Shown: positions 8,006-36,149 of the stretch, piece by piece
Layout: each line of letters begins with the position of its first letter
How positions within the stretch are numbered: the first letter of the stretch is position 1
DNA from: Candidatus Omnitrophota bacterium
GTDB taxonomy: Bacteria; Omnitrophota; Gorgyraeia; Zapsychrales; JAHFFX01
NCBI GenBank assembly: GCA_023247725.1
Contig: JAHFFW010000022.1
Coordinates: forward strand, 1 to 41,151
DNA: 41,151 nucleotides
Direction of reading: 5' to 3'
Made by a program: the position numbers and the translations under genes
Notes under the pieces: model-generated
What the model saw: the letters and a program-made list of their open reading frames with translations, nothing else
Database searches by the model: none
What the model was told of the DNA's origin: nothing

Positions 8006-8065
8006 GTCACCAGTCACACGTCACCGGTCACAGCAAGAACTATGGTGACATGTGACTTATGACTT
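8006..8065. repeat. Heptad-periodic inverted repeat (GTCACnn) in aceE-aceF spacer
   Basis: Left arm: four 7-base units GTCACCA, GTCACAC, GTCACCG, GTCACAG (8006-8033). Right arm: GTGACAT, GTGACTT, ATGACTT (8045-8065). The arms can pair into a long imperfect hairpin. A related copy in inverted orientation is at 28684-28745. Confidence 0.85.
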
Positions 8066-8082
8066 AATAAAGGACTTTCCCA

Positions 8083-9402
8083 ATGCCCACCACTGACTTC
8101 AAACTTCCCGGTCTCGGTGAGAACATCACCTCGGGTGTCGTCACGAAAATCATGGTGAAGGTCGGCGATACCGTCAAAAAAGATCAGATGGTGATCGAAT
8201 TAGAGACCGACAAAGCAGTTCTGGAAGTTCCCTCCCCCATGGAGGGCGTGATTAAAGAAATCCTCCTCAAGGTTGGCCAATCCGCCAAAGTTGGTCAAGT
8301 TGTTATGCGCCTCGAGGAAGGGGCAACAACCACCGCGACTCCACCAACGGTTGCCACGCCGCAAAAGCCCAAGGAAGAAGAAAAAAAAGAGACTCCTTCT
8401 GCGCCCCCCGCTTCACTGAAAACCGAAATCCCCACCCAAACAGCGCCGGTAGAAAAAGAATTCCCGCTCCCGGATTATGAACCATCCCTGGCAAAGGATG
8501 TTCCCGCTGCCCCCTCTGTGCGCCGCTTTGCTCGAGAGATTGGCATTGAAATCAGTCAAGTTCCCGGCAGTGGACCAAAAAGCAGGATTTCCATCGACGA
8601 CGTAAAGGCGTTCGCCAAGGCGATCAATACCGGCGCGACCGGGCGTCCATCCAGCGACAGTCATGTTCTTCAACCCCCTCTCCCCGATTTTACCAAATGG
8701 GGCGGGGTTGAACGTCAAGCCATGAGCATGGTGCGAAAAAAAACGGCCGAGCATTTAAGTCTCGCCTGGTCCATGATTCCTCATGTGACGCAGTTTGACA
8801 AGGCTGATGTTACCGAGCTGGAAAAACTACGGAAACGCTTCGCCAAAAAAGCCGAGAGTAAAGGCGGCAAGCTTACGATCACCGCCTTTCTTTTGAAGGT
8901 GTTGGCCGGCGCCTTAAAAGTTTTCCCCCAATTCAATGCGAGTGTCGATATGCCCCGCAATGAAATCATTTACAAAAAATATTTTCATATTGGTGTCGCC
9001 GTCGACACCGATCGGGGTCTGATTGTTCCCGTCATCCGCGATGTGGATAAAAAAGGGATCTTTGATCTGGCGGTCGAACTCGCGCAGATGGCGGAGAAAG
9101 CCCGCAACCGCAAAACCACGATTGAGGAAATGCAGGGAAGTTCTTTCACGCTGACGAATTTAGGAGGAGTGGGCGGCACGGCTTTTACCCCCATCATCAA
9201 TTGGCCGGATGTGGCCATCCTCGGAGTCTCACGAGCGAACCTTGAACCAATTTATATCGAAGGCCAACTTGTTCCTCGCCTCTTGCTTCCCCTTTCTTTA
9301 TCTTACGACCATCGCCTCATCGATGGAGCGGACGGGGCCCGATTTTTGCGTTGGGTTTCCGAGGCGATTCAGCAGCCTTTGCTGATTGAGCTGGAGGGTT
9401 AG
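8083..9402 (+). CDS. aceF: Dihydrolipoamide acetyltransferase (PDH E2)
   Basis: This 439-residue E2 has one lipoyl domain (about 1-78, lipoylated Lys44 in ETDKAVLEV), a Pro/Ala/Thr/Glu-rich flexible linker (about 80-135), a peripheral-subunit-binding domain (about 142-178, PSVRRFAREIGIEISQVPGSG) and the catalytic acyltransferase core (about 210-439) with the active-site DHRLIDGA motif near residue 410. It moves the acetyl group from E1 to CoA and forms the core of the complex that binds E1 and E3. Start ATG 8083 follows an AAAGGA ribosome-binding site. One lipoyl domain is the small end of the AceF range, where E. coli has three. It ends with TAG. Confidence 0.97.
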   Translation: MPTTDFKLPGLGENITSGVVTKIMVKVGDTVKKDQMVIELETDKAVLEVPSPMEGVIKEILLKVGQSAKVGQVVMRLEEGATTTATPPTVATPQKPKEEEKKETPSAPPASLKTEIPTQTAPVEKEFPLPDYEPSLAKDVPAAPSVRRFAREIGIEISQVPGSGPKSRISIDDVKAFAKAINTGATGRPSSDSHVLQPPLPDFTKWGGVERQAMSMVRKKTAEHLSLAWSMIPHVTQFDKADVTELEKLRKRFAKKAESKGGKLTITAFLLKVLAGALKVFPQFNASVDMPRNEIIYKKYFHIGVAVDTDRGLIVPVIRDVDKKGIFDLAVELAQMAEKARNRKTTIEEMQGSSFTLTNLGGVGGTAFTPIINWPDVAILGVSRANLEPIYIEGQLVPRLLLPLSLSYDHRLIDGADGARFLRWVSEAIQQPLLIELEG

Positions 9403-9411
9403 TTTTGTAAC

Positions 9412-9575
9412 GTAGGACGTGGGACGTTCGCTCACTTCGTTCGCTGGGACGCAGGACGTGGATTTCGAGTGGAGCTGCATTCAAATTTTACGTCCCTCGT
9501 CCGAGCGAGCCCCGTTATTTGCTTGCAGCAACAAACAAAAATCAGCGGGGCGAGCGGACGTCCCACTTCCCACGG
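9412..9575. repeat. Heptad-periodic inverted repeat in aceF-lpdA spacer
   Basis: Left part has units GTAGGAC (9412), GTGGGAC (9419), GTTCGCT (9426), GTTCGCT (9439) and GCAGGAC (9451). The right part (about 9550-9575) reads GCGAGCGGACGTCCCACTTC, the complement of the left arm in order. A very similar left arm recurs at 36129. Together with 9403-9588 this fills the aceF-lpdA gap. It can be translated in frame with lpdA but is not part of that protein. Confidence 0.75.
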
Positions 9576-9588
9576 GAAAGGAATTTTC

Positions 9589-11007
9589 GTGAGCAACTCT
9601 TCGACTCACCTCGTGGTCATCGGCGCTGGCCCCGGCGGTTACGCGGCGGCCTTTCTCGCTGCCGATTTAGGGATGGCGGTAACCCTCATCGATGAGGACA
9701 CCAATCCCGGCGGAGTCTGTCTTTACCGCGGTTGCATTCCTTCCAAAGCGCTCCTGCATGCGGCCAAAGTCCTCTCCGAAGCCAGGGAAGCCAAAAATTT
9801 TGGCGTTGATTTTCCTGAACCCAAAATTCATCTTGATCAGCTGCGTCAATGGAAAAATAATGTCGTCGGCCGGATGACCTCTGGGTTAGGGGTCCTGGTC
9901 AAGCAACGCAAGATCCAATACATTCGGGGAAAGGCCAGATTTCTTAATTCCTCTTCTCTGCAGATTAACGAAACCAGTGGTTCTGTAACGCAATTAAACT
10001 TTGCCACGGCTATCCTGGCGACGGGATCGCGTCCGATTCTCTTGCCCAATCTGCCTGCGTCGGACCGAATTATGGACTCCACCTCGGCCCTGGAGATTAA
10101 GGATATTCCTCAATCACTTCTGGTCGTTGGCGGCGGTTACATCGGTCTGGAACTAGGCACGGTTTATGCGCAATTGGGTTCGAAAATCACCGTCGTGGAA
10201 ATGACGCCGGGATTAATTCCAGGAGCGGACCGCGACGTAGTTCAAATTCTTTCCAGACAGGTCGAAAAGATTTTTTCCAATATGATGCTAAATACAAAGG
10301 TCACCGGCATGGCCACAACCGACAGCGGAATCAAGGTGACCTTTGAACAGGAAGATGGACAGAAAAAAGCAGCGGAATTTAGTAAGGTCCTCATCGCGAT
10401 CGGACGCAAACCCAACACGCAAGATTTAGGGTTAGAACATACCAAAATCCAACTCGACAGCCGCCAATTTGTCAAGGTCTCACCGACTCGCCAAACCACG
10501 GATAAAAATATTTATGCAATCGGTGATATTGCCGGGGAACCCATGCTCGCGCATAAGGCTTCTCATGAGGGCCGGATTGCCGTCGAGGCGATCGCCGGCC
10601 ATAAGGTGGCCTTTGAGCCGCAGGCGATTCCGGCGGTGGTCTTTACCGATCCGGAAATTGCCTGGTGTGGATTGACCGAAACGCAGGCGGCCAAAGAGAA
10701 TCGCCCCGTCAAAGTGGCCAAATTCCCCTGGGGGGCCTCGGGCCGCGCCGTTACCTTGGATCGGCCGGAGGGCTTGACCAAGCTGATCATCGATCCGGCG
10801 ACCGAACGGGTTTTAGGGATGGTGGTTGTGGGGACCGGGGCCGGAGAACTCATTGCGGAGGGTGTCCTCGCTGTCGAAATGGGATCCGTTGTGTCCGATA
10901 TCAAATTGAGCATCCATCCGCATCCCACGCTTTCCGAAACCATCATGGAATCCGCCGAGAGTTTCTTCGGTCAGAGCACGCATATTTATCGGCCGATACA
11001 AAAATAA
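9589..11007 (+). CDS. lpdA: Dihydrolipoamide dehydrogenase (PDH E3)
   Basis: This 472-residue flavoprotein reoxidises the dihydrolipoyl arm of E2 and passes electrons to NAD. Visible motifs: FAD-binding VVIGAGPGGYAAAFLA at the N-terminus; redox-active disulphide Cys44-LYRG-Cys49; NAD-binding VVGGGYIGLELGTVYAQLG; second FAD motif YAIGDIAGEPMLAHKA; and the C-terminal catalytic His-Glu pair in HPHPTLSETIMES. I place the start at GTG 9589 because an AAAGGA ribosome-binding site lies just upstream and the family N-terminus begins there. An in-frame ATG at 9469 would add 40 residues translated from the repeat-filled spacer. A strong terminator follows, closing the PDH cluster. Confidence 0.96.
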   Translation: MSNSSTHLVVIGAGPGGYAAAFLAADLGMAVTLIDEDTNPGGVCLYRGCIPSKALLHAAKVLSEAREAKNFGVDFPEPKIHLDQLRQWKNNVVGRMTSGLGVLVKQRKIQYIRGKARFLNSSSLQINETSGSVTQLNFATAILATGSRPILLPNLPASDRIMDSTSALEIKDIPQSLLVVGGGYIGLELGTVYAQLGSKITVVEMTPGLIPGADRDVVQILSRQVEKIFSNMMLNTKVTGMATTDSGIKVTFEQEDGQKKAAEFSKVLIAIGRKPNTQDLGLEHTKIQLDSRQFVKVSPTRQTTDKNIYAIGDIAGEPMLAHKASHEGRIAVEAIAGHKVAFEPQAIPAVVFTDPEIAWCGLTETQAAKENRPVKVAKFPWGASGRAVTLDRPEGLTKLIIDPATERVLGMVVVGTGAGELIAEGVLAVEMGSVVSDIKLSIHPHPTLSETIMESAESFFGQSTHIYRPIQK

Positions 11008-11009
11008 AA

Positions 11010-11038
11010 AAAGCGGAAAACTCTGAGTTTTCCGCTTT
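11010..11038 (+). terminator. Intrinsic terminator after lpdA
   Basis: AAAGCGGAAAACTC (11010-11023) pairs with GAGTTTTCCGCTTT (11025-11038), two bases after the lpdA stop. It is A-rich before and T-rich after, so it could also act on the convergent response-regulator operon, though 90 bases separate it from that gene. Confidence 0.88.
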
Positions 11039-11128
11039 GCCTTTATCCTTTCGACGTCTCTCGTCCCAGTGAACCCCGCCGGTTCCTAACGAATGGTCAG
11101 ATGGCGGGGTGAACGGTCCCCTCGCCTC

Positions 11129-11500
11129 TCAAATCTCCCTCCCAATCGCCGCCTTGATCGCCCTTTTGACGTCTTCCATTTCAAACGGCTTTTTAAGGCA
11201 CGTCACTGCGCCCAGCGCCTGGGCCTGTGCCCTCTTTTCCTCGACGGAATAGCCGCTCATCATGATGATGGGTAATTTGGGTGACACCGAGCGGATCTCT
11301 CTGAGGATTTCCACTCCGTCTTTTCCCGGCATAACAATATCCAGGAAGGCGATATCAAAATCCTGTTTGCGGATCGCATTGATGGCATCGAGGCAATTGT
11401 CCACGACAGTGATGTGATGGCCGCTATATCCTAAAGTAAAGTCAAATAAATCGCCGATGACTTTTTTATCATCAACGACTAAAACCTTGATTTTATCCAT
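11129..11500 (-). CDS. Single-domain response regulator (CheY-like)
   Basis: This 123-residue receiver keeps the full active site: acidic VVDDKK, phosphoacceptor Asp54 in AFLDIVMPGKDG, MMSGY (Thr/Ser position) and the conserved Lys in CLKKPFE. There is no output domain, so it acts through protein contact or a phosphorelay. It lies 40 bases downstream of a membrane histidine kinase gene and is its likely partner. It contrasts with the two receivers at 601 and 2840, which have lost the phosphoacceptor. Confidence 0.92.
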   Translation of the reverse strand: MDKIKVLVVDDKKVIGDLFDFTLGYSGHHITVVDNCLDAINAIRKQDFDIAFLDIVMPGKDGVEILREIRSVSPKLPIIMMSGYSVEEKRAQAQALGAVTCLKKPFEMEDVKRAIKAAIGREI

Positions 11501-11540
11501 CCAAATCTCCTAAAGGGATTGGCGCCATTATACAATAAAC

Positions 11541-13070: not shown

Positions 13071-13148
13071 TGCGGCTATTCTAACATTCGCGTCCTTTTC
13101 ATTCCATGGGAAACTCAGAATTTTCCGGGATGGGGAAGCGGAAAATCT

Positions 13149-13610
13149 TTAGCGCAGAAGAATCTTGGCCGTGTCGTTTTTTTTGATTCCGAATTGTTGA
13201 GCGGATCCGGCATTGACTTCCAGGACATAAAGGGCAGGCTGTACCGGCGCGTAATTGGGACAGGGATCATGAACGCACGCCGGCACGTTGGTTTCCAAAT
13301 GCACAACCGAGCGATCGGAATTGAGCCAAATGATATCCAAAGGGATCAAGGTGTTTTTCATCCAGAAGCTGTAACGCTCCGGCCGGGGAAAAACAAACAG
13401 CATCCCCTCATCCGGTGGCAAAGACCGTCGGAACATAAGTCCTTTGGAGAGTTCTTCCGGCCGCGAGACAACTTTCACTGCGAAACAATGCTGTTCAAAG
13501 CAGACCTGATCAATTTTTGATCGGGGGAATTTTGATGAGCAGCCAAGGAAAGGCAAAAGAAATAACCCAAGGACAAGGAAGAAACCCGCCCAGAAAAACG
13601 TCCGGATCAC
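13149..13610 (-). CDS. DUF192-family lipoprotein
   Basis: This 153-residue protein has a lipoprotein-type signal peptide (hydrophobic stretch ending LLPFLGCSS, lipidated Cys near 24), so it should sit on a periplasmic membrane face. The rest is a DUF192 domain with its signature blocks: EELSKGLMFRRSLPPDEGMLFVF, FWMKNTLIPLDIIWL, and PALYVLEVNAGSAQQFGIKKND. The molecular function of DUF192 is not established. Its ATG overlaps the stop of the Maf-M48 gene by four bases (ATGA), so it is translationally coupled to an envelope protease gene. Confidence 0.92.
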   Translation of the reverse strand: MIRTFFWAGFFLVLGLFLLPFLGCSSKFPRSKIDQVCFEQHCFAVKVVSRPEELSKGLMFRRSLPPDEGMLFVFPRPERYSFWMKNTLIPLDIIWLNSDRSVVHLETNVPACVHDPCPNYAPVQPALYVLEVNAGSAQQFGIKKNDTAKILLR

Positions 13611-14935
13611 CGCTCACCCGTGAGGTTGAGATAATCCCGAAATTCCAATTGTCCTTTGACATCGGCGCGGGCCTGGGAGATCCGTTGGCTCAAATGCGGA
13701 TGAGTTCGCCAATAGCTGAAGGGACGGCCCGGTTCCTTGTCTTCTTCCGCCTTGAGGATGGCTAAGGCCTCCCCCATTCCGGCGGGATTAAAACCGGCCT
13801 TGCGCGCATATTTGATTCCAAGTTGGTCAGCCTGGAACTCATCTTGTTGCGAGTATTCCAGGAAAACCGAAGTAAAGGCAGCATCAAGACCCGGCGCCAT
13901 CTGGGCATTGCCTGATCCGATGGTCGCGATTTGCAAAAGGGTATAACCGTACATCGATTGCAATTTTTTGATCGCGTGCCGCGCCGTGATATGACCCACT
14001 TCATGACCAATGACGCCAGCCAGCTGATCGTCGGTTTTCAATTTGTCCAGCAAGCCTTTAAAGACATACACGTAACCGCCGGGAAGACTGACGGCGTTCA
14101 ATTTATCTTCGTCAATAACTCGAATGGAGTAAACCAATTCCTGGCGGTCGCACACAGCCACAATGCAATCGAGGATCCGCTGCACACGTTCGTTCGTGTC
14201 CACATCCTCGACATATTTGTAATGTTTGTCGAATTGCCGGGAAAGGGAATTACCAATGGAAACTTCTTTATCGGTTCCATACAGCAGGGTTTCGTGCTTC
14301 CCCGTCGCCAGATTATATTCGGTAGCGCATCCGAAGAGACCGAGGAGCAGGACCAAACCTAAAAGATGCACTCCCATTTTCTTGAGCATTTGAAATAACT
14401 TCGCCATCGGAAGCCCGATGACATTGAAATAACAGCCTTCAATCCGCCGGATAAAAAGCGCCCCATGGCCTTCAATATCAAAACCTCCCGCCTTATCCAA
14501 AGGAGACACTTTGTTGTGATAACGCTCGATTTCCTCATTGGACAAATGCGTCATGAACACCTTGGTTTTTTCGTAATCGACCATTTGCCGGCCGGTCTGC
14601 GTATCGATGACCGCCAGACCCGTATAAACCCAATGCGGTTGGGCAAAAAGTCGCCGGAGAATCCGTTGGGCTTCCTTGAGGTCTTTGGGTTTACCCACGA
14701 TCGTTTTCCCTCCCAGATACACCAGCGTGTCGGCCCCGATCACGATGGAATCGGTTGTGCGTCCGGCGACATCCGTGGCCTTTTGCAAGGCATTTTCCTT
14801 CACCAGATCCGCGCAGGTGGTGCGGATTCTGGACTTTTCCCGGATATGGCTTGGCTCGACGCACAATGGAATCCCGAGACGTTTTAACAAATTCTGTCTC
14901 TGGACGGACGCCGAGGCCAAAATAATTTTTTTCAT
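13607..14935 (-). CDS. Maf nucleotide pyrophosphatase fused in frame to a lipoprotein M48 metallopeptidase
   Basis: One 442-codon frame encodes two normally separate proteins. Residues 1-180 are a complete Maf domain (ILASASVQRQNLLKRLGI, catalytic Asp69 in GADTLV, IVGKP, DKAGGFDIEGHGALFIRRIEGCYFNVIGLP), which hydrolyses non-canonical nucleoside triphosphates in the cytoplasm. Residues 187-442 are a YfgC/LoiP-like M48 zinc peptidase with its own lipoprotein signal (GVHLLGLVLLLGLFGC, lipobox Cys203), HEVGH zinc site (311-315) and DEFQAD third ligand. A cytoplasmic domain in front of a secretion signal is topologically odd. Internal Met codons at 177, 183 and 187 (14407, 14389, 14377) could start the lipoprotein separately, but none has a clear Shine-Dalgarno. 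It is preceded by pyrE and followed by an ATGA overlap with the DUF192 gene. Confidence 0.9.
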   Translation of the reverse strand: MKKIILASASVQRQNLLKRLGIPLCVEPSHIREKSRIRTTCADLVKENALQKATDVAGRTTDSIVIGADTLVYLGGKTIVGKPKDLKEAQRILRRLFAQPHWVYTGLAVIDTQTGRQMVDYEKTKVFMTHLSNEEIERYHNKVSPLDKAGGFDIEGHGALFIRRIEGCYFNVIGLPMAKLFQMLKKMGVHLLGLVLLLGLFGCATEYNLATGKHETLLYGTDKEVSIGNSLSRQFDKHYKYVEDVDTNERVQRILDCIVAVCDRQELVYSIRVIDEDKLNAVSLPGGYVYVFKGLLDKLKTDDQLAGVIGHEVGHITARHAIKKLQSMYGYTLLQIATIGSGNAQMAPGLDAAFTSVFLEYSQQDEFQADQLGIKYARKAGFNPAGMGEALAILKAEEDKEPGRPFSYWRTHPHLSQRISQARADVKGQLEFRDYLNLTGER

Positions 14936-14945
14936 GCGTTGGTCA

Positions 14946-15853: not shown

Positions 15854-15954
15854 TGGGTCCTCCTTCTTCTCTGCTTCTCTTAAGTTGAATGATTCCCGGA
15901 TGCAAAACAAGGGGTATTATACGACGGTGGTCGGGGCGTGACAATTTATTTCTA

Positions 15955-16102
15955 GGGTATAGGGTGATGGGTATAGGGTATAGGCGGAATAGATATTGTA
16001 AGACCGCCGGAAAAGGAAATTCTTTAAAACCTTTTGGTCGTTTGAAATTTGGATTTTGGATTTGTTTGGAATTTGGTCATTGTAAATCTATCCGCTATCC
16101 GC
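15955..16102. repeat. Heptad-periodic inverted repeat (GGGTATA / TATCCGC)
   Basis: Left arm GGGTATA, GGGTGAT, GGGTATA, GGGTATA, GGCGGAA (15955-15989). Right arm TATCCGC, TATCCGC (16089-16102), the complement of the GCGGATA-like phase. Between them, about 16050-16078, the word TTTGGA(A) repeats at a similar period. The array fills the 250-base gap between the FAD-oxidase stop and the secreted-protein gene. Confidence 0.8.
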
Positions 16103-16104
16103 TG

Positions 16105-17580
16105 CTACGGAAGTTCCTCCCGAAACATCTCCCGGTAATGCCGATACCAGTCGCTCTGAAAACGTTCCGTCGGGTCGTACTTTAATTTCAATTTCAAAAA
16201 ATCCACGAATTGCGGATAACAGGCCAAGACCTGCTCCTTGGTCGCCCAGCGATGATAGGTCAAATAATAGCTTCCCTTAAACTCGATGGCGCGGTCAATG
16301 AGGCGGCGAAAATGTTCCTGCGCCTCTTTGATTCCTTCCGGGGTATGCTCCACATGCAGATTTAAAATGACGCAAATAAAATTCTTTCTGGCCCAGGCCA
16401 AAAAACTTTCCTTATCCTCTTCAATCCAGCGGACGGTGCCATAGATGAGCGGGACATTGTATTTCAAAAAATCCTGACGCACTGCCTCCATAAAATCCAC
16501 GAGCTGATCGCGGGGGACATAAATCTCGGTGATCATCTCCGATCCCGGATGGGTGGATTTGAGCTGCTGATCGACGAGTGTATGATAATTCTCGATATAG
16601 GTTGCCAAGTCGGCTGTGTCCGACCAATAGATCTGCCCGGCGGTTTTGAGGTAATACCGGGAATATTTTTGGTAAGCCTCGGCAGGATTTGTATGAGCCA
16701 GGTAATATAATTGCCGCTAATCCGAATCAGTTTGTTTCAGAGGATTGGCGGTCAAAGGAGTCGCGTGATCCACCGGCGCATACGTAGGAAATATTCCTTC
16801 GCGCATGAAATTCTCGGAGATCTTGTCAGTCGAATACTGAAAGTCTCCGTACAGATATCCGGCCTTGATCCGTTCTTGAAACTTTTCGACAAGATTGTTG
16901 ATGGAAATGATCTCCACATCGCGGCGGACTCTCATCCTTGTTCCCAACCGCAATTGAATCTGAGTAATCACCCCGAACAATCCATAACCGCCGATGACTA
17001 AACGAAAAAGCTCGGGGTTGTGCCGGCGACTGCAGCGCTTCATTTTTCCGTCGGCATCAATCAACAAAAATGATTCCACCTGGTCAATGATCGGTTTGCA
17101 GGTCAATGCCCGGCCGTGGGCGTTGGCCGACAATGCGCCGCCGATGCTCAGGCGACTGGTCCCGGTTTGCTTTTGGATAATTCCCCATTGGTGGCGATCG
17201 CCTTCTTGCGCCTTGAGTAGATATCCCACCAATTCCGGCCATTGGATTCCGGCCTCCACTTCAATCATTCCCCGACGGCGATCAAAGGCTAGGATCTCAT
17301 TCATTCGGCTCATATCAATGAGGAACGTGCCAGCTCCGAACTGTTGGCCTCCCATGGCATGGCGTCCGGCGCAGATGCTGACGGCCAGATGCCCTCGTTT
17401 GGCCTGCTTGATGAGGGCAATGACCTCGGCCGTCAATTCAGGGTAATGAATGCTGTGAACCGTTGTTTCATTGAGGGCCGAATGAACATCATTAACAACC
17501 GGATTTATTTGCGCCAGCACCGGCGAGGAAAGCATTGCTGCGATCAAAAGACCGGCAAAGACTAAAGAAATTTTTTTCAT
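16105..17580 (-). pseudogene. Secreted FAD-linked oxidase interrupted by one in-frame TAG
   Basis: From ATG 17580 the frame encodes a signal peptide (MKKISLVFAGLLIAAMLSSPVLAQ), then an FAD-binding (PCMH-type) domain: SICAGRHAMGGQQFGAGTFLIDMSRMN, EVEAGIQWPEL, QTGTSRLSIGGALSANAHGR, VIGGYGLFGVITQIQLRLG. After 287 codons a TAG occurs at 16717-16719. The same frame continues without gap for 203 codons (RQLYYLAHTNPAEAYQKYS..., TEIYVPRDQ, HVEHTPEGIKEAQEHF, YPQFVDFLKLKLKYDPTERFQS) to a second TAG at 16105. The second part is the normal C-terminal half of this oxidase family. Without the internal TAG the protein would be 491 residues. Because TAG also ends this gene and others here, a nonsense mutation (perhaps TGG to TAG) is more likely than recoding. 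The ATG overlaps the stop of the upstream membrane-protein gene. Confidence 0.85.
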
Positions 17581-18236
17581 TGCATTGTTTCTCGGGGAAA
17601 AGGTTTGAGAGCTTGACCGCAAAAGAATAACAGCGCGAACGAGGCCATCAGAAACAGATGATAAATCGTGTTGTGGTTCAAATACACGGGATCCCAGGCC
17701 AGCCGCGCATTTTGGATGTACGACCCCGCTAAAGCCAAAAGTAATCCGGCAACACCCAGGAATGCCGTCCCCTGTTTTGTTTGAACCCCAAGCTGGCCAA
17801 GCACGACGAGCAAAAAGACAACGGCCGGTAAATAATTGGCGATGACAAACAGGTAATCCGGGAGGAAGAAGAGGACGAGCGGGATATAAAGACTCAATTG
17901 CACAACCGATAATCGCCGCAGGATCTGATTCCATCGAGCCTCTGGATAGATGGCCGCGCTCGCCTGCCAAAGCCCGAAGATCGCTGGGCCGATGGCCAAT
18001 AAAATCCATCGCCAAAGGATTTTAAAACCCCAGGACGAGCGGGCTGAAAAATAGGCGTGGACCATCGCTCCTAAAAGGGCGGCCCAGCCGCTGGAATGAA
18101 AAAACAGGACCAGCGACGAGCGGAAATAGTTGGAGGGCGTTTTGCGCACCAAGAGCCAGGCGAATAAAAAATTCTCAATGGATAAAAAAAAGTTGGTCAA
18201 GGCCACAATAGAATCGGCGTTGGTCATAGATTTCAT
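17577..18236 (-). CDS. Multi-pass membrane protein (DUF6962-like)
   Basis: From ATG 18236 this is a 219-residue protein with about seven hydrophobic segments (e.g. VALTNFFLSIENFLFAWLLV, WILLAIGPAIFGLWQA, LVLFFLPDYLFVIANYL, VVFLLVVLGQLGV, TIYHLFLMASFALLFFCG). It resembles 7TM proteins of unknown function of the DUF6962 type; the assignment is tentative. An upstream in-frame start at 18296 is rejected because it would translate the REP palindromes. The stop overlaps the ATG of the secreted FAD-oxidase gene (ATGA), so the two were made together. A membrane partner, such as an electron acceptor, for the oxidase is possible but not shown. No heme- or quinone-binding signature is obvious. Confidence 0.7.
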   Translation of the reverse strand: MKSMTNADSIVALTNFFLSIENFLFAWLLVRKTPSNYFRSSLVLFFHSSGWAALLGAMVHAYFSARSSWGFKILWRWILLAIGPAIFGLWQASAAIYPEARWNQILRRLSVVQLSLYIPLVLFFLPDYLFVIANYLPAVVFLLVVLGQLGVQTKQGTAFLGVAGLLLALAGSYIQNARLAWDPVYLNHNTIYHLFLMASFALLFFCGQALKPFPRETMQ

Positions 18237-18252
18237 TGCTACGGTAGCCACC

Positions 18253-18310
18253 CTCTCACCCCGGGAGTGAGAGAAGCGCATAAATGATGCTCTCACTCCC
18301 GGGGTGAGAG
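18253..18310. repeat. Doublet of CTCTCAC...GTGAGAG palindromes in opposite orientation
   Basis: Copy 1 (18253-18273) is the exact reverse complement of copy 2 (18290-18310), with 16 bases between. Each is a 7-base-arm palindrome around a CCCGGG centre. Copy 2 is identical over 21 bases to the one at 5163-5186. Head-to-head pairing is reminiscent of REP doublets (BIMEs). Confidence 0.8.
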
Positions 18311-19198: not shown

Positions 19199-19217
19199 AC
19201 ATTCTGGGCTCCTCGTG

Positions 19218-19399
19218 CCCAGCATCCAACTCCCGGCTATCGTAACACTGGGAGCTTGGGGCTGGGTGACAAGTAAATATCAAGGACTAGGAACAGGGAG
19301 CCATTCTCGCTAAAATTAAAACGCTGCGTTCTCATGCCAAGCAAGCAGCTCCCGGTGCTGAACATCTACTGCTTGGAGCCTGGCGCTGGGAGCTGGACG
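19218..19399. repeat. Two successive heptad-periodic inverted repeats (CTGGGAG family)
   Basis: First palindrome: CCCAGCA-TCCAACT-CCCGGCT (19218-19238) against CTGGGAG-CTTGGGG-CTGGGTG (19248-19268). Second: CCAAGCA-AGCAGCT-CCCGGTG (19337-19357) against CTTGGAG-CCTGGCG-CTGGGAG-CTGGACG (19372-19399). The strict 7-base phasing holds in both. GCCATTCTCGCT follows both palindromes (about 19300 and 19399), so the unit appears duplicated. It occupies the comF-lptF gap. Confidence 0.85.
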
Positions 19400-24059: not shown

Positions 24060-24060
24060 A

Positions 24061-24972: not shown

Positions 24973-24983
24973 ATTTGTTTCAT

Positions 24984-25052
24984 GTGTTATGTGTCACGTG
25001 TTATGTCCTGTCAGAATTCCATTCCGTAGTTATAAAACATGACACGTAACAC
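24984..25052. repeat. Heptad-periodic inverted repeat (GTGTTAT) between mtnA and thiL
   Basis: Left arm GTGTTAT, GTGTCAC, GTGTTAT, GTCCTGT (24984-25011). Right arm ATGACAC, GTAACAC (25039-25052), complementary to the left. An exact 7-base period holds in both. It fills the gap between two genes otherwise arranged like an operon. Confidence 0.82.
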
Positions 25053-25053
25053 A

Positions 25054-26097
25054 TTAAACAAACTTGAATGCCTTTTTGATATTGCGGCCTAACGGCGGCC
25101 GGATGATCCCTCGCTCCGTAATGATCGCCGTGATCAGGGAATGATCGGTCACATCAAACGCCGGGTTATAGACCGTAACGCCGTCGGGGGCAATCGGTAT
25201 TCCGGCCATGGTCGTGACTTCTTCTTTCTTTCGTTCTTCAATCGGAATCTGACGGCCGGTTTGGATCTTAAGATCAAAGGTGGACGAGGGAGCCACCACA
25301 TAAAACGGAATTCCGTGATGTTTGGCCAGAACGGCGAGATTGTATGTTCCAATTTTATTAGCGGTGTCGCCGTTAGCCGCGATGCGGTCGGCGCCGGTAA
25401 AGATTCCCTGAATTTTTCCCTGCTTCATGACGGTTGCCGCCATATTGTCGCAAATGAGCGTCGTCGGAATCTTCTCTTTGGTCAATTCCCAGGCGGTGAG
25501 GCGCGCGCCCTGCAAAAGCGGTCTGGTTTCGCAAGCCATCACCTTAAATTTTTTTCCCTGGCGCTTGGCTGAATACATGACTCCCAGCGCCGTTCCATAA
25601 TCGGCAGTGGCCAGGGCGCCGGCGTTACAGACCGTCATGATTTGCTGGCCCGAACGGATCAATCCTGCGCCAAGGTCCCCCATCCGTCGGCAAACCGCGC
25701 GGTCTTCTTCGAAAACCGCCAGGGCCTCTTTTTTCAGAACGGTTTTTAACCCGGCGACGGATTGGCCAGCATGCGTTTCGGCGGCATTTTGCATCCTTTC
25801 TAAGACATGGAATAAATTGACCGCCGTCGGGCGGGAAGAACCGATATATGCGCAAACCTTTTTTAGATGGGCCAAAAATTTTTGGGAATCCTTCCCCTTA
25901 AAATCCTTGATCCCCAGCAAAACGCCAAAACCCGCGGCAATCCCTAAGGCTGGCGCCCCGCGCACGGCGAGGGTTCGGATGGCCCACCAAAGTGTTTTGA
26001 GATCGCGGCAGATAATGTATTGGAGTTTCCTGGGAAGCTCACGCTGATCAATGATCTTGACGCCGCTATGAATCCATTGAATGGTTTGAATTGCCAT
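25054..26097 (-). CDS. mtnA: S-methyl-5-thioribose-1-phosphate isomerase
   Basis: This 347-residue protein of the eIF2B-like fold isomerises methylthioribose-1-phosphate to the ribulose form in the methionine salvage pathway. The catalytic Cys lies in MTVCNAGALATADYGTALG (about residue 158) and the catalytic Asp in IFTGADRIAANGDTANKIGTY (about 235). It also has RGAPALGIAAGFG at the N-terminus. Related ribose-1,5-bisphosphate isomerases exist; the MtnA length and motifs favour MtnA. No other mtn genes are near, so salvage may be partial or scattered. Confidence 0.93.
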   Translation of the reverse strand: MAIQTIQWIHSGVKIIDQRELPRKLQYIICRDLKTLWWAIRTLAVRGAPALGIAAGFGVLLGIKDFKGKDSQKFLAHLKKVCAYIGSSRPTAVNLFHVLERMQNAAETHAGQSVAGLKTVLKKEALAVFEEDRAVCRRMGDLGAGLIRSGQQIMTVCNAGALATADYGTALGVMYSAKRQGKKFKVMACETRPLLQGARLTAWELTKEKIPTTLICDNMAATVMKQGKIQGIFTGADRIAANGDTANKIGTYNLAVLAKHHGIPFYVVAPSSTFDLKIQTGRQIPIEERKKEEVTTMAGIPIAPDGVTVYNPAFDVTDHSLITAIITERGIIRPPLGRNIKKAFKFV

Positions 26098-27093: not shown

Positions 27094-27124
27094 ACATTCT
27101 CCTAATGACTCTCAAAGAAATTTT

Positions 27125-28648: not shown

Positions 28649-28683
28649 TTGAAAAATCCGATGCAAATCAGATCAGTCAGAAG

Positions 28684-28745
28684 GTCACTCGTCACAAGTC
28701 ACAGGAAAATTTTCTTGTGACCATGTGACTGGTGACTTTGTGACC
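28684..28745. repeat. Heptad-periodic inverted repeat (GTCACnn) between ricT and metG
   Basis: Left arm GTCACTC, GTCACAA, GTCACAG (28684-28704). Right arm GTGACCA, GTGACTG, GTGACTT, GTGACC (28717-28745, two 8-base steps). Its reverse complement aligns over much of its length with the aceE-aceF array at 8006, so the two are the same element type 20 kb apart. Confidence 0.83.
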
Positions 28746-28762
28746 CTTAAATACCGTGCAGC

Positions 28763-30510: not shown

Positions 30511-30542
30511 TTCATTGGGTACCTGGGGCGCTGGGGGACCTT

Positions 30543-31175
30543 TCAATTATTTCTTCTTAACAAATCGTCCACAAATCCACGCACAACCTTTTGCACCTCA
30601 TGCTTATTCCCATCCACCTTAATCAATTTCACCCGATGGGGTTCTTTGGATGCAATCTCGCAATATCCCCAACGAACCCGGTTGTGGTAATCCAAAGAAC
30701 GCAATTCAATCCGGTCTTTTCTGGAAGTTTTGCGCGCCAGGCCTCGTCGCGTATCAATATCAAAAATGAAGGTCAAATGAGGGACGATGCCTTGAGTTGC
30801 CCTTTTGCCCAACGATCGGATAAATTCCAGAGGAAGGCCATGCCCATAGCCCTGATAGACGAGCGTTGAATCAAGAAAGCGATCGCACAGCACAATGGCC
30901 CCTTTCCTTAAGACCGGGGCAATCACTTCCTCGACGAGTTGCGCCCGGGCCGCCATGTATAACAAGGTTTCACAGACCGCATTCATTTCTTTGTGCCGCA
31001 CATCCAGAAGGATCCGGCGGATCGCTTCGCTAATCTTAACGCCTCCGGGTTCGCGGATAAGAAGAACGGATGGGTAGCGGCTTTTCAAATATCGATAGAC
31101 CAGTTTCGCCTGGGTGCTTTTCCCGGAGCCTTCGGAGCCTTCGAATGTGATGAATTTCCCTTTGTGTCGTGTCAT
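30543..31175 (-). CDS. tmk: Thymidylate kinase
   Basis: This 210-residue kinase makes dTDP from dTMP. The P-loop is FEGSEGSGKSTQAKL, followed by REPGG, the DR motif in CDRFLDSTLVYQGYG, and the lid region GLARKTSRKDRIE. ATG 31175 is preferred over TTG 31190. It is the first gene of the tmk-holB-ricT-metG run. The 197-base gap upstream (31176-31372) holds no gene and no heptad repeat that I can see. Confidence 0.95.
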   Translation of the reverse strand: MTRHKGKFITFEGSEGSGKSTQAKLVYRYLKSRYPSVLLIREPGGVKISEAIRRILLDVRHKEMNAVCETLLYMAARAQLVEEVIAPVLRKGAIVLCDRFLDSTLVYQGYGHGLPLEFIRSLGKRATQGIVPHLTFIFDIDTRRGLARKTSRKDRIELRSLDYHNRVRWGYCEIASKEPHRVKLIKVDGNKHEVQKVVRGFVDDLLRRNN

Positions 31176-31372
31176 TTGGTTCAGGGCCAAACAAATCCTG
31201 GGCTCATCGTCCTTTGGCGTTCATCAATGCTCTTTTCTTAAGAATGATCCAGCGCCGTCGTATGGTTTTGACCTGTGCCTCTCTCTGTTGATCCTGTGAA
31301 CGGGGAAAAAATGAATTCATCAAGAAACAGAGTTGCTTAAATTTTATAGAAATAGGCGCTGTTCGCGACTCT

Positions 31373-32803
31373 TCAATTTGCATGCCTCATTCGTTTCTTC
31401 CATTCAAGCTCAATAAACGTAATGCCCGAAACCGTATCCACGGCCGCCAGATGAAAGCGGCTCCGCATTTCCTGACGCAAGGCATCCGCCCGGGTAAAAT
31501 CTTTATTTTTTTTGGCGGCCTCTCTTTGCCGAACCAGTTCGCGGAGCTCCTCGGGTAACTCCTGGGCCGTTTTCACTTCCAATCCCAGAAGACCAAATAA
31601 TTCCGAAAGCCGCAAGAGCGCGTAACGAAAGGCCTCTTCTTTTCCGGCGGAAATCAATACCGAACCCCAGTCCACCAAATGGAACATCGCGGCCAAGGCC
31701 TGCGGGGTATTGAAATCATCGTCCATCGCGGCGGTAAAAGCCGCCACGGCGGCGTCAACTTTCCCAAAATCATCGTCGGAGACGGGAACCATCGGTTGAC
31801 CCGGATAAGCCGACCACCCGTGCACCTTGTCCATGAATTCCACAAAATGCCGCCGGGCCTTTTGGGCCTCCAGGATTTTTTCTTCAGTGAAATCAATCGG
31901 ACTCGCATAGTGCGAGGATAAGAAAAAAAGTTTAAGGTTATCCACGCCGTATTGAGAAATCGCTTCTTGCACCGTAATGAAGTTGCCCAGCGATTTGGCC
32001 ATCTTCTGGCCGTTGATGGTTAAAAGACCATGATGAATCCAATATCGGGAGAAAGGTTTTCCGGTCAAGGCTTCCGATTGGGCAATTTCATTCTCGTGAT
32101 GGGGAAAAACCAAATCCCGGCCACCGGCATGGATATCGAGCGTCTGCGTCTTTAAATGCTTCATGCTCATAGAAGAGCATTCGATATGCCAGCCCGGCCG
32201 GCCTTCTCCCCAGGGGCTCGCCCAAGAGGGCTCGCCGGGCTTGGACTTTTTCCATAAAGCGAAATCAAGTGGATCTTTTTTCTTCGAATCTTTTTCGATC
32301 CGAACCGCCTCCAACATTTGATCGATGCTTTGACCCGAAAGCCGGCCATAATCCTTGAATTTGCGAACATCAAAATAGACATCACCATCAATGGGGTAAG
32401 CAAATCCCTTCTGAGCAAGACCCTGGATGTGTTGAATCATGTCCGGGATATCATCCGTGGCCTTCGGTTCCTGGTCGGCTCGGGCAATACCCAGCGCCTC
32501 CAGGTCCCGATCATAAGAGGCGATATTTTCCGAGGCGACCTGCTGGCTGGTTTTTTTCTGCTCCTGCGCCTTATTGATGATTTTGTCATCGACGTCAGTA
32601 ATATTGCGGACAAATTGAACGTCATAACCCCGATACTTTAGGTAACGGCGGATGACATCAAAAATGTAAAGGCTGCGCGCGTGTCCCAGGTGACATTGGT
32701 CGTACACCGTCACCCCGCAAGTATACATCTTGACGACCGGAGGGTTTTGCGGAAGAAATTCTGCTTTTTGTTTCGTGAGGGTATTGTAAATTTTGAGAGG
32801 CAT
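31373..32803 (-). CDS. cysS: Cysteinyl-tRNA synthetase
   Basis: This 476-residue class I synthetase charges tRNA-Cys. Zinc-binding Cys in MYTCGVTVYDQCHLGHARS, HIGH as HLGH, GWHIECSSMSMKHL and FPHHENEIAQSEA (zinc ligands), and the KMSKS motif as KMAKS in GQKMAKSLGNF (Ala in the third position). Standard length. It follows cysE at a 193-base gap, and the cysE-cysS pair links cysteine synthesis and its use. The start ATG 32803 is just before the TAGCGGG array. Confidence 0.96.
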   Translation of the reverse strand: MPLKIYNTLTKQKAEFLPQNPPVVKMYTCGVTVYDQCHLGHARSLYIFDVIRRYLKYRGYDVQFVRNITDVDDKIINKAQEQKKTSQQVASENIASYDRDLEALGIARADQEPKATDDIPDMIQHIQGLAQKGFAYPIDGDVYFDVRKFKDYGRLSGQSIDQMLEAVRIEKDSKKKDPLDFALWKKSKPGEPSWASPWGEGRPGWHIECSSMSMKHLKTQTLDIHAGGRDLVFPHHENEIAQSEALTGKPFSRYWIHHGLLTINGQKMAKSLGNFITVQEAISQYGVDNLKLFFLSSHYASPIDFTEEKILEAQKARRHFVEFMDKVHGWSAYPGQPMVPVSDDDFGKVDAAVAAFTAAMDDDFNTPQALAAMFHLVDWGSVLISAGKEEAFRYALLRLSELFGLLGLEVKTAQELPEELRELVRQREAAKKNKDFTRADALRQEMRSRFHLAAVDTVSGITFIELEWKKRMRHAN

Positions 32804-32806
32804 TTT

Positions 32807-32841
32807 TAGCGGGTAGCGGGTAGCGGGTAGCGGGTAGTGGT
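32807..32841. repeat. Heptanucleotide tandem repeat (TAGCGGG)
   Basis: Four perfect copies of TAGCGGG in direct tandem (32807-32834) followed by TAGTGGT. The 193-base cysE-cysS gap also holds a diffuse inverted repeat with GAGTTTG/GGAGTTA on the left (about 32853) and its complement AACTC...TAACTCC on the right (about 32977). No gene is seen in this gap. Confidence 0.92.
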
Positions 32842-32996
32842 CATTTTTTATAGAGTTTGGGAGTTAGGGAAATTTTAATAGGTATTGTCACGATTGAGTT
32901 GAATTACTCCAAGGAAATCATGTAGTTGCTGTCTTTCATATTAGTTGGCTGCAAACATATTTTCTTTACCGCCTTAACTCTCTAACTCCAATTTCT

Positions 32997-33686
32997 TCAC
33001 TTTCCCTTCAATCTCTCCTCCAAATCCCTAATCCGCTGCAACAACTCCGCCATATTCTGCATGACCGGATCGAGGATATGCACGTGATCCATCTGGGTGT
33101 CGATTTTTTTTCCCTCCTGGCGCGTGATCCGTCCGGGAACTCCGACCACCGTCGAGTTAGGGGGAACGTCTTTGACCACGACGGCATTGGCTCCGATATA
33201 AGAATTGTCGCCGATCGTGATGTTGCCTAAGATTTTTGCCCCGGCCCCGACGACAATATTATTGCCCAGGGTCGGATGCCGTTTACCGGTTTCCTTGCCC
33301 GTGCCCCCCAGGGTGACGCCTTGGAACAGGGTGACATTGTCACCGATCATCGAGGTCTCACCAATCACGACTCCGGTCCCATGATCAATAAAAAGGCCGC
33401 GGGCGATCCGGGCTCCGGGATGGATCTCGATGCCGGTCAAAAAGCGCGCGAATTGGGAAATGGCCCGAGGAAAAAACGGAATCTTGCAATTCCAAAGAAA
33501 ATGCGATAATCGGTAGGCAATGATCGCATGAAAACCCGCATACAATAAAACGATTTCGAGCACGCCCTTTGCCGCCGGGTCTCTCTCTTTGGTCGCCTGG
33601 ATTTCCGCAGAGAAAAAAATAACACAGATTCCCACCCACGCCAGAACAATGAGCGCCAAAAATAAAAGAAATCCGAGAAATCCCAT
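32997..33686 (-). CDS. cysE: Serine O-acetyltransferase with N-terminal membrane anchor
   Basis: This 229-residue hexapeptide-repeat acetyltransferase makes O-acetylserine for cysteine synthesis. It has [55 protein letters not shown], the CysE active-site block with catalytic His in DHGTG and KRHP, then the left-handed beta-helix to GVPGRITR. Residues 2-28 are a hydrophobic helix ([24 protein letters not shown]) absent from the soluble short CysE type, so this copy may sit on the membrane. The ATG 33686 has an AAGGAG ribosome-binding site, which supports that start. cysS lies downstream, ispF upstream. Confidence 0.9.
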
Positions 33687-33700
33687 CGCTGCTCCTTTTC

Positions 33701-33740
33701 GTGGCTCGTGGCCTGTGGCTCGTCACGGATCACGAGCCAC
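33701..33740. repeat. Heptad-periodic inverted repeat (GTGGCTC) between ispF and cysE
   Basis: GTGGCTC, GTGGCCT, GTGGCTC, GTCACGG, ATCACGA, GCCAC run at exact 7-base spacing (33701-33740). The inner GTGGCTCGT (33715-33723) pairs with ACGAGCCAC (33732-33740). It forms a compact hairpin in a 56-base gap. Confidence 0.83.
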
Positions 33741-33742
33741 CA

Positions 33743-34231
33743 TCACGATTCCTTTTCTAAGACCGCCACCGCGTAGGCCGCAATCGCCTTTTTGCCCGAA
33801 CCAAAACCCATTCCCTCCTGGGTGGTCGCCTTGATATTGATTTGATTTTCGTTGATGGCAAGTGCACCGGCAATTTTTTTTCGCATGGCTGGTTTATATT
33901 CCTGCAGATTCGGCTCCTCGACGAGAACCATGGTATCGATATGACCGATCCGGTATTGTGCTTTCTTCACCATGGTTTTGACCCTTGTGAGCAATTGCAA
34001 GCTGGAAATTCCTTTGAAGCGAGGATCTTTATTCGGAAAATGCTCGCCGATATCGCCTTTTCCCGCCGCGCCTAACAGTGCATCACAAATGGCATGCAAC
34101 AACACATCCGCATCGGAATGCCCCAAAAGCCCCCATCGATGCGGAATCAAAACCCCGCCCAGAAATAACCGCCGGCCTTTGACCAGGCGGTGGATATCAT
34201 ATCCAAAACCAACGTTGGAGATGTTGATCAC
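33743..34231 (-). CDS. ispF: 2-C-methyl-D-erythritol 2,4-cyclodiphosphate synthase
   Basis: This 162-residue zinc enzyme closes the ring in the MEP isoprenoid pathway. Metal-binding GYDIHRL (Asp12, His14), GHSDADVLLHAICDALLGAAGKGDIGEHFP and the C-terminal KATTQEGMGFGSGKKAIAAYAV are the family signatures. It follows ispD in the same operon, separated only by a 63-residue gene overlapping both. Standard length. Confidence 0.96.
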   Translation of the reverse strand: MINISNVGFGYDIHRLVKGRRLFLGGVLIPHRWGLLGHSDADVLLHAICDALLGAAGKGDIGEHFPNKDPRFKGISSLQLLTRVKTMVKKAQYRIGHIDTMVLVEEPNLQEYKPAMRKKIAGALAINENQINIKATTQEGMGFGSGKKAIAAYAVAVLEKES

Positions 34232-34419
34232 GCTCCGATCTTCCAGATCCGCGCCCTTTTTCCTCGTCGGCGTTCAAGCAGCGCCGCCATTTTTTGCATT
34301 TTAACCAGCATGCGAATTTCTTCTGGAAAAGACTGACGAGCGAGTTCCTTGCGCCGGGTTTGCCTTTGAACAAAAATCTTTTTCAGTTGAGGATCTAAGT
34401 GTTCGTCCATTCTCGCCAT
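34228..34419 (-). CDS. Small basic protein in the ispD-ispF operon
   Basis: This 63-residue, strongly basic, helical protein (LDPQLKKIFVQRQTRRKELARQSFPEEIRMLVKMQKMAALLERRRGKRARIW) overlaps the end of ispD by 25 bases and the start of ispF by four (ATGA). The RRKELAxxxFxEExRxLxxxQKMAxxxxxRRGxxxRxW pattern resembles small uncharacterised bacterial proteins in which it reads RRxxLAxLPFEEKxRxLxxLQ; the link is from memory. Tight overlaps argue that it is a real gene. Function unknown; RNA or protein binding is possible given its charge. Confidence 0.68.
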   Translation of the reverse strand: MARMDEHLDPQLKKIFVQRQTRRKELARQSFPEEIRMLVKMQKMAALLERRRGKRARIWKIGA

Positions 34420-35111
34420 CTCCGGCTCAAAGGGATTCTTAGCAAAGCGCCGGCCAGGACAAGATCTTCCGGTGTCGTGACCTTCAGATTGAAATGATCT
34501 CCCGGAAAAATTTTGACCTTGACCCCCAGGGCCTCCACCAGCGCCGCATCATCCGTCGGATTCGGGTGAGTTCGTTTTAGGTGCGCCCGCAAAAGCAAGT
34601 CTCTGTCAAAGGCTTGCGGGGTTTGGATCTCGTAAATTTTTTCTCGATCCAGAGTTCGTTCAACCATGCCGGTCCCGGGATTGATTTCCTTCACGGCGGC
34701 CTTGAGCTTGACGGCGGCCACGGCCGCTGCGAAACGCCGCGCCTGTCTGATCGCTTCTTTAATAAGTCGTTCATTCAACATGGGTCTGGCCGCATCATGC
34801 ACGAGGACAAACCGCGTGTCTTTGTCCAAACATTGCAGCCCGGCAAAGACAGAATCCGAACGCTCTTTGCCCCCGTCGATGATTCGAGTCACCTTGCGCA
34901 GTCGCAGCGCCTTGATCATTCGCTCCGCGCGATCGTGTTGAGCCGGCTGAACAACCAGAATGATGCTATGAATCAAAGAACACCGCTCCAGCGCAGCCAG
35001 CGAATAATAAACCAGGGGTTTTCCATTCAAAGGGATGAGGGCTTTGCTGGTACGGCGCTTGAGTCTCACCCCGCGTCCGGCCGCCGGGACAATGGCTTGA
35101 ACCTTCACCAT
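34395..35111 (-). CDS. ispD: 2-C-methyl-D-erythritol 4-phosphate cytidylyltransferase
   Basis: This 238-residue nucleotidyltransferase transfers CMP to methylerythritol phosphate. The N-terminal signature is VPAAGRGVRLKRRTSKALIPLNGKPLVYYSL (Gly-rich CTP loop), followed by GGKERSDSVFAGL, LVHDAARPML, and the TPQAFDRDLLLRAH and DDAALVEALGVKVKI blocks. Its start overlaps the stop of the PIN/TRAM gene. With ispF it gives two adjacent MEP steps; the intermediate step IspE is not here. Confidence 0.96.
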   Translation of the reverse strand: MVKVQAIVPAAGRGVRLKRRTSKALIPLNGKPLVYYSLAALERCSLIHSIILVVQPAQHDRAERMIKALRLRKVTRIIDGGKERSDSVFAGLQCLDKDTRFVLVHDAARPMLNERLIKEAIRQARRFAAAVAAVKLKAAVKEINPGTGMVERTLDREKIYEIQTPQAFDRDLLLRAHLKRTHPNPTDDAALVEALGVKVKIFPGDHFNLKVTTPEDLVLAGALLRIPLSRRWREWTNT

Positions 35112-36103
35112 TAACCCTTCTCGGCCTTAACCGGTTTGGCAAAAATCATTCGTCCCGCCTGAGTCTGCAGAACCGAGGTAACGGTCGCCTTGATCTTTTG
35201 TCCCAAGAGATGCCGGGCCTCCGACACCACGATCATGGTTCCGTCGTCAAGATAGCCGACCGCCTGATTAGGCTCTTTGCCTTCTTTAAGTAGTCGCACT
35301 TCCATGACTTCACTGGGAAAGACGACGGACTTGACGGCATTGGTCAGCTCATTGATATTAAGAACTTTTACTCCCTGGATCGTGGCGATCCGGTTGAGAT
35401 TAAAATCCGTCGTGCAGACCTTGGCCTCCATCATCCTGGCCATTTTAACGAGTTTATTATCGACGTCTATTTCCCCCGGAAGGTCATCCTCTTGAATGCG
35501 CATCTCGATCGCCGGATCTTTTTGCATGGAGCGCAGAATCTCCAATCCGCGCCGGCCTTTCTGCCTTTTCAAGGGGTCGTCGGAATCGGCGATTTTCTGC
35601 AGCTCCTGCAGGACAAACCGCGGCACGACCAGGCGTCCGGAAAAAAAATTGGTTTTATAGATGTCCGCCATCCGGCCGTCGATGATGGAGCTGGTATCCA
35701 GCAGCACATCCTCGTCGCGAATATCCTGGCGTTTGAACCGGACATAAGGAATGATGACGCTAAATTCATCCTTACCGCGCATGGCCATGACCGCACCCAG
35801 GTAAGAAAAGATGAGGGTCAGAACCACGCGCGCGATATTTTTAACCGCATCGCTCAAAGGCAATAACGAAAGGATGTCGGCCACCAGATTCGCCATAAAT
35901 ACCCCCAACAGCAAACCAAAGACCATGCTGGAAAGCCCGCGCACAGAGACCCGCTGCATATTGGCTTCGACGACGATCAACAAAAATGCAGCCAGGATCC
36001 CTAAGGCCATCCCGATGAGCGGCTGGTTATTGATGGCCCCGACCTGATCACCGACGATGCCGCTGATGATCACGAAAAAACTGCGGATAAATAGTAAAGT
36101 CAT
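35111..36103 (-). CDS. Membrane PIN-TRAM domain protein (YacL-like)
   Basis: This 330-residue protein has four hydrophobic helices in residues 1-110 (e.g. PLIGMALGILAAFLLIVV, MVFGLLLGVFMANLVADIL), a PIN ribonuclease-fold domain (about 130-240) with acidic motifs LLDTSSIIDGR and TTDFNLNRIA, and a C-terminal TRAM RNA-binding domain (about 265-325, VGYLDDGTMIVVSEARHLLGQKIKATVTSVLQTQAGRMIFA). It is expected to be a membrane-associated RNase or RNA-binding protein. YacL-type genes lie next to radA and ispD in Firmicutes, the same order as here. A heptad spacer lies between it and radA. Confidence 0.92.
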   Translation of the reverse strand: MTLLFIRSFFVIISGIVGDQVGAINNQPLIGMALGILAAFLLIVVEANMQRVSVRGLSSMVFGLLLGVFMANLVADILSLLPLSDAVKNIARVVLTLIFSYLGAVMAMRGKDEFSVIIPYVRFKRQDIRDEDVLLDTSSIIDGRMADIYKTNFFSGRLVVPRFVLQELQKIADSDDPLKRQKGRRGLEILRSMQKDPAIEMRIQEDDLPGEIDVDNKLVKMARMMEAKVCTTDFNLNRIATIQGVKVLNINELTNAVKSVVFPSEVMEVRLLKEGKEPNQAVGYLDDGTMIVVSEARHLLGQKIKATVTSVLQTQAGRMIFAKPVKAEKG

Positions 36104-36128
36104 ATCTACTCCTTAAAGATCATTCCAC

Positions 36129-36149
36129 GTAGGACGTGGGATGTTCACT
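36129..36149. repeat. Heptad-periodic repeat (GTAGGAC) between radA and PIN-TRAM
   Basis: GTAGGAC, GTGGGAT, GTTCACT (36129-36149) repeats at 7 bases, and GTTCGGACGTG follows at about 36169. The first 21 bases match the left arm at 9412 with two changes. The 85-base gap has no gene. Confidence 0.7.

Follow-up and report, generated by a model that had tools for sequence, protein, structure and literature searches.

Intergenic palindromes with arms of 7- or 8-bp units in a likely Omnitrophota genome

We analysed a 41,151 bp stretch of DNA (the window), which is contig 14 in a metagenome-derived genome of 2.19 Mb and 52 contigs (G000). In nine gaps between its genes short words had been noticed that repeat every 7 bases. 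Most of these arrays form the arms of inverted hairpins, and a single genome holds several word families, each with a characteristic unit length. We propose that the hairpins are intergenic palindromic elements whose arms of 7- or 8-bp units would serve as DNA-level docking arrays for a DNA-binding protein and which would have spread as small dispersed repeats. To this proposal we assign a probability of about 0.45. All rates given below derive from sampled stretches (L-numbers), which for the own genome comprised 371 kb. Comparisons were made with the relatives G001 (about 90% complete), G002, G005 and G009, with 150 kb of E. coli K-12 run through the same pipeline as a control, and with 193 genomes of the phylum surveyed for GTGAC arrays. 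In a tree of AceE the window and four relatives of its order group with two named Omnitrophota (support 100/99). Since the tree rests on one gene, this placement is likely rather than proven.

Period-7 repeats in intergenic spacers

The periodicity was scanned by counting segments whose bases recur k positions further on. For lags 7 and 14 the spacers of the own-genome sample contained 33 and 24 segments, compared to means of 3.4 and 2.5 in dinucleotide shuffles, and no lag besides these two exceeded 15 segments. Coding DNA, four times larger (298 kb), contained 8 segments at lag 7 and 5 at lag 14. A stricter scan retained 12 segments in the spacers, 0.07 in shuffles and 0 in coding DNA. At a separate stricter threshold lags 7 and 14 alone remained, with four segments each. 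The spacers of G001 (21 kb) yielded 16 segments versus 0.0 in shuffles, while no lag-7 excess was seen in E. coli. The lack of a genome-wide excess of lag 7 over shuffles had been named beforehand as what would refute the claim of a 7-base period; since the spacers exceed their dinucleotide shuffles, the claim is not refuted.

The individual gaps behave in the same manner. Among lags 4 to 14, lag 7 gave the best 14-base match count in all nine gaps, with ties or losses by one base only to its multiple 14. Against 2000 dinucleotide shuffles every gap passed its own test: p was < 0.0005 at 8006 and 32807, 0.0005 at 33701, 0.001 at 15955, 0.002 at 28684, 0.0035 at 9412, 0.005 at 24984, 0.013 at 19218 and 0.037 at 36129, these values being uncorrected for the choice of the nine places. 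Hairpin arms of 17 or more bases were compared at lag 7: the fraction of equal bases was 0.53 in G001 (0.51 on unbiased contigs, i.e. those picked regardless of arrays), with values of 0.44 for G009, 0.36 for G000 and 0.26 for E. coli. Lags 7 and 14 topped all others, for which the fraction was approximately 0.2–0.33.

Word families and unit length

The original prediction had assumed a different word at each place, a strict period of 7 and, as a consequence, a copying mechanism that acts on the unit length. The words are in fact shared: the gaps at 8006 and 28684 both carry GTCAC, those at 9412 and 36129 both carry GTAGGAC, and the words recur elsewhere. GTCACnn, CGTCCnn, GTGTTAn, GTGGCTC-like and TAGCGnn are found repeatedly in the genome and also in a second genus, and a DNA search with the first half of the window placed the elements at 8006 and at 9412 each at more than 10 further positions in G001. 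The period is not strict either, as the right arm at 28684 is spaced 8-7-8 and other word families are 8-periodic. Intergenic tandem units of exactly 7 nt thus coexist with 8-nt families. In G001 successive GTGAC cores are spaced by 7 versus 8 in a ratio of 84:6 and CCCAG cores in a ratio of 4:35 (Fisher p = 6e-21). Four-unit GTGAC arrays in the phylum survey had spacings of 6, 7, 8 and 9 in 0, 20, 16 and 0 genomes, respectively, such that one core occurs at 7 or at 8 in different genomes. The unit length follows the word family and, for the GTGAC core at any rate, takes only the values 7 and 8. Because the unit length is not strictly 7 and the words are shared, the existence of a copying machine with a set unit length does not follow.

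The elements span approximately 50–210 bp and consist of units of 7 or 8 bp in which the core is constant and one to three positions are free. Paired arrays lie on opposite strands at variable separation, with about four (3–5) units per site. In the GTCAC family the unit reads G[T/A]CAC followed by two free bases. Over 104 inner units the column identities were.90 (G),.67 (T),.94 (C),.98 (A) and.96 (C), and.36 and.50 for the free bases. Exactly four units were present in 39 of 50 arms and none was longer. Mismatches between the arms of this family concentrate in columns that are variable within the arm (28.6% vs 7.6%). Unequal use of the columns is clear for GTCAC alone; for all families taken untrimmed the effect is weak (2.6 standard deviations). 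Equal unit numbers in both arms, considered as a sign of joint change, are uninformative because nearly all are four.

Arrays of other build were also seen. In the relative G005 a composite minisatellite (L167:18165-18420) alternates rows of GACACnn heptamers with a repeated GAAAACCTTAAAAACAGAAAAAA block. A pure GTGACTT array in a phylum relative (G080:C7:120741-120857) runs on without interruption for many units, where four are usual.

Position and turnover at conserved gene junctions

Most elements are located between genes of the same direction, close to the stop codon of the upstream gene: in G001 their density was 1.42 per kb as against 0.14 per kb between divergent genes, in a sample partly picked for array hits. 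In the median they begin 9 nt past the upstream stop and end 24 nt ahead of the next start, occupying about 60% of the gap.

The gene order is conserved throughout the taxonomic order, which allows corresponding gaps to be compared between relatives. In G000 the gap between metG and ricT comprises 96 nt and holds a GTCAC hairpin, whereas it is 0 nt long in G001 and G002. Between alr and tsaB there are 0 nt in G000, G002 and G009, and a 132-nt heptamer hairpin in G001. Other gaps are occupied in both genomes by different words: TAGCGGG in G000 and ATGGCTC arms in G001 between cysS and cysE, GTAGGAC in G000 and AGTGTCA arms in G009 between x330 and x458. These same-gap differences between relatives show that elements arise, disappear or give way to one with another word, and that they appear and vanish together with the gap. 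The aceF-lpd element is kept unusually well. Its gap (9403-9603), which ends near 9603, where lpd homology starts, and not at 9468, shows 88% identity over 111 bp when G000 is compared with G001, the flanking genes being at approximately 70%. The high identity would be explained by strong constraint on the element or by a recent conversion event involving another copy.

Origin of the elements

Three options had been named at the outset, i.e. mRNA-processing hairpins, protein-binding arrays and slippage products, among which protein-binding arrays appear to fit best. The elements would act as DNA, namely as docking arrays for a putative DNA-binding protein or an element-copying enzyme, which would read the core at a 7–8 bp step on both arms. 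They would spread and get replaced as small dispersed repeats, similar in behaviour to repetitive extragenic palindromes (REP) or miniature inverted-repeat transposable elements (MITE), and would be tolerated at gene ends rather than kept for RNA pairing. At slightly less than even odds, a docking array that spread as a dispersed repeat would account for most of the pattern.

Several points weigh against this proposal. The docking protein is putative, and the positional bias could be mere tolerance. At least seven word families in one genome would require several proteins or one lax protein, which argues against a single strict reader. Whole-element copying is shown only in part, for portions of the GTCAC and GGACG families. 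Identical 13-nt loops occur at two loci of G001 and identical 9-nt loops at two more, and the numerous G001 copies resembling the 9412 element speak for it as well; over all copies, loop sharing amounted to 29 pairs versus 22.5 by shuffling, and homologous loops were rejected as a general proof of such copying. In several families the two arms share in-register deviations (142 vs 45 after permuting units, a count inflated by the choice of the best register), and in some families these point equally to fold-back copying. Finally, the contrast in G-U mismatches between periodic and control hairpins (see below) is borderline (p = 0.051).

The best surviving alternative, which we consider somewhat unlikely, holds that the elements are functionless by-products of replication: slippage would duplicate 7–8 nt, corresponding to the polymerase footprint, and fold-back template switching would make the inverted arm. 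The excerpts of PMC4679880 and PMC4692102 used here cite Mrazek et al. 2007 for heptanucleotide repeats being the commonest 5–11 nt class in most bacteria and for the footprint idea. The in-register deviations common to both arms, the mostly unrelated loops and the rapid turnover agree with such an origin, and the restriction of the GTGAC core to 7 or 8 suits a footprint that may vary by one base. However, the unit length is tied to the word and not to the genome, and identical words turn up at numerous loci as well as in a second genus. For slippage microsatellites a broad spread of unit numbers and an even decay of the columns are characteristic, neither of which is seen in the GTCAC family. 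Pure slippage is therefore inadequate, since the count is fixed at four in GTCAC hairpins, the free positions are restricted to set columns and the unit length goes with the word.

Hairpins in mRNA between operon genes, which stabilise, process or terminate transcripts, would be in accord with the location near the stop codon between co-directional genes and with the strong folds. We nonetheless regard this explanation as improbable. In 91 periodic hairpins, taken on the transcribed strand, 95 G-U mismatches stood against 96 A-C mismatches, while the expected G-U excess was present in 129 non-periodic hairpins (159 vs 116) and in E. coli (21 vs 9). With both kinds of mismatch equally frequent in the periodic hairpins, pairing at the RNA level appears not to be under selection. 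The T-run of intrinsic terminators followed only 6 of 88 periodic hairpins, and the sole match of an Rfam search of the window was a tRNA. We take the elements to act, if at all, as DNA.

REP and bacterial interspersed mosaic elements (BIME) of enterobacteria and pseudomonads are, like the elements described here, small dispersed palindromes between co-directional genes; they are without periodic arms and depend on RAYT, a Y1 transposase. Mobilisation by a RAYT has very little to recommend it in our case. The GTAGGAC start and the palindrome of the 9412 element recall REPs, and G000 has four Y1_Tnp hits, of which three are identical in score and length. In G001, the array-richest genome sampled, no Y1_Tnp hit was found (at the completeness of about 90%), and this origin was rejected. 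The three genes of equal score and length lie at G000:C8:1196, C49:18884 and C52:34538.

Chance or an assembly artefact, in favour of which one may say that any single array is short, has practically no probability left and is already refuted by the genome scan, with shuffles, coding DNA and E. coli all clean and the aceF-lpd element conserved across two genera.

Elements and genes in the window

The mostly inverted layout of the original prediction was confirmed. It is clear at 8006, 9412, 24984, 28684 and 33701 and supported by the fold at 19218; at 36129 the inverted partner is weak, and at 32807 and 15955 there is none of the same word.

Between aceE and aceF lies a GTCAC-family hairpin (8004..8065) with the left arm AGTCACC-AGTCACA-CGTCACC-GGTCACA, the loop GCAAGAACTA and the right arm GGTGACA-TGTGACT-TATGACTT. 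It is followed between aceF and lpd by a compound palindrome of the GGACG family (9409..9585; GTAGGACGTGGGACG ... CGTCCCACTTCCCACG, inner TTCGCTCACTTCGTTCGC) with a fold of -92.5 kcal/mol. A single gap harbours both a TAGGGTA/GGGTATA array (15953..15984), also detected by Tandem Repeats Finder (TRF), and a TTTGGAT array with a CTATCCG pair (16040..16103; TRF and lag scan); G001 carries TAGCGTA arms in this gap. The hairpin between comF and lptF (19216..19267) is built as CCCAGC..CTGGGAG..CTGGG. Arms of 31 bases form the GTGTTAT/GTGTCAC hairpin between mtnA and thiL (24974..25060), which is likewise supported by its fold and the right arm of which extends to the mtnA stop. The second GTCAC-family hairpin (28676..28744, between ricT and metG; fold -41.5 kcal/mol) has the right arm GTGACCAT-GTGACTG-GTGACTTT, giving the steps 8-7-8. 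Directly upstream of the cysS start a direct TAGCGGG array (32806..32840) comprises 4.4 perfect copies (TRF 100%). A GTGGCTC hairpin with 17-base arms and a 6-base loop, seen also in the fold, is situated between the gene at 33743-34231 and cysE (33699..33745). The short GTAGGAC/GTGGGAT array at 36127..36182 matches stretch L100 of the own genome with 87% over 53 bp.

The genes of the window are housekeeping genes: aceE, aceF, lpd, maf, pyrE, comF, lptFG, alr, tsaB, thiL, mtnA, metG, ricT, cysS and cysE. A single open reading frame (ORF) of 442 aa (13607-14935, minus strand) fuses a Maf nucleotide pyrophosphatase (1-185) with an M48/BepA-like protease (221-424). It has full-length matches in G001 and G002, and matches to the protease part only (202/205-442) in G009 and G005. 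At 16717-18296 (minus strand) a match to an FAD-linked oxidoreductase spans only about half of the family model, and two ORFs overlap at this place, possibly a broken gene.

Comparison with known systems

The dominance of 7-nt repeats in bacterial spacers has been a question since the 2007 survey, for which a polymerase footprint was proposed. The phylum studied here offers handles on it: a core at 7 or 8 and not at 6 or 9, a unit length fixed by the family, the four-unit count, and empty versus filled gaps. Combined, these discriminate footprint, binding and RNA models from sequence alone. It is also conceivable, though quite unlikely, that Omnitrophota and scattered phyla share one general class of elements, consisting solely of two opposed rows of about four cores with a 7- or 8-bp step and interchangeable words, in which a putative DNA-binding or DNA-copying protein would measure the step and not the sequence. 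Heptamer hairpins were not found to be widespread in other phyla: pooled arms were without a lag-7 peak, with single cases only in Acidobacteria (L016) and Pirellulales (L059). At pyruvate dehydrogenase loci on contigs of Acidobacteria, Desulfobacterales and Chlorobi (L022, L029, L036, L071) 8-periodic spacer arrays, CACGAAAG / CACAGAGG, were observed.

As had been supposed, the literature search found no described counterpart in the lineage, and the formal resemblance to cyanobacterial heptanucleotide repeats holds. The short tandemly repeated repetitive sequences (STRR) of heterocystous cyanobacteria and the GGGAATC (Xanthomonas) and GGGGA(C/T)T (Nostoc) repeats are likewise intergenic 7-nt arrays, mostly between aligned genes and closer to the 5' neighbour (PMC4692102). 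There, however, each genome has a single G-rich word, which could form G-quadruplexes, whereas here several words, a fixed short count and an 8-nt variant occur. AceE groups with Omnitrophota, and the words differ from the named cyanobacterial ones. Marine Beggiatoaceae likewise have many copies of an intergenic 7-nt direct repeat, TAACTGA (PMC4679880). These copies use one word, are nearly all direct and lie close upstream of starts, in contrast to the inverted arms nearer the upstream stop described here. The nearest cyanobacterial parallel is the P6b stem of the tRNA-Leu(UAA) intron in Nostoc and Calothrix, where either of two 7-nt words (TDNGATT or NNTGAGT) makes up the arms (PMC4476775). 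It shares hairpin arms of 7-nt words, alternative words at one site and changes in whole units, but it is a single locus in a group I intron RNA, whereas we find many intergenic loci without an RNA-pairing signature.

The closest precedent is provided by Geobacter metallireducens. According to the excerpt of PMC2700814 used here, its arrays are paired across the two strands with variable separation, each composed of four GTTGCTYN octamers or five MTYCTGA heptamers, and were termed paired 'global regulator binding sites' (classes 1-3), IHF/HU-type binding being a hypothesis there too; a GGACCGG family of four heptamers occurs at 49 places. Layout, unit number, unit length and degeneracy agree with these arrays. 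The pattern in the window is real, but it falls into a little-studied, already recorded class of bacterial intergenic repeats. Many intergenic copies, degenerate positions and several families per genome are common to both, and MTYCTGA matches the AGAAGTC/CTTCTGA word of G009. The Geobacter arrays differ in belonging to another phylum and in mostly using other words, and the excerpt reports neither a comparison of orthologous gaps nor a test of RNA pairing. To this picture the Omnitrophota arrays add the lack of an RNA-pairing signal, the turnover of the gaps, the limit to 7 or 8 and a unit length that is bound to the word family.

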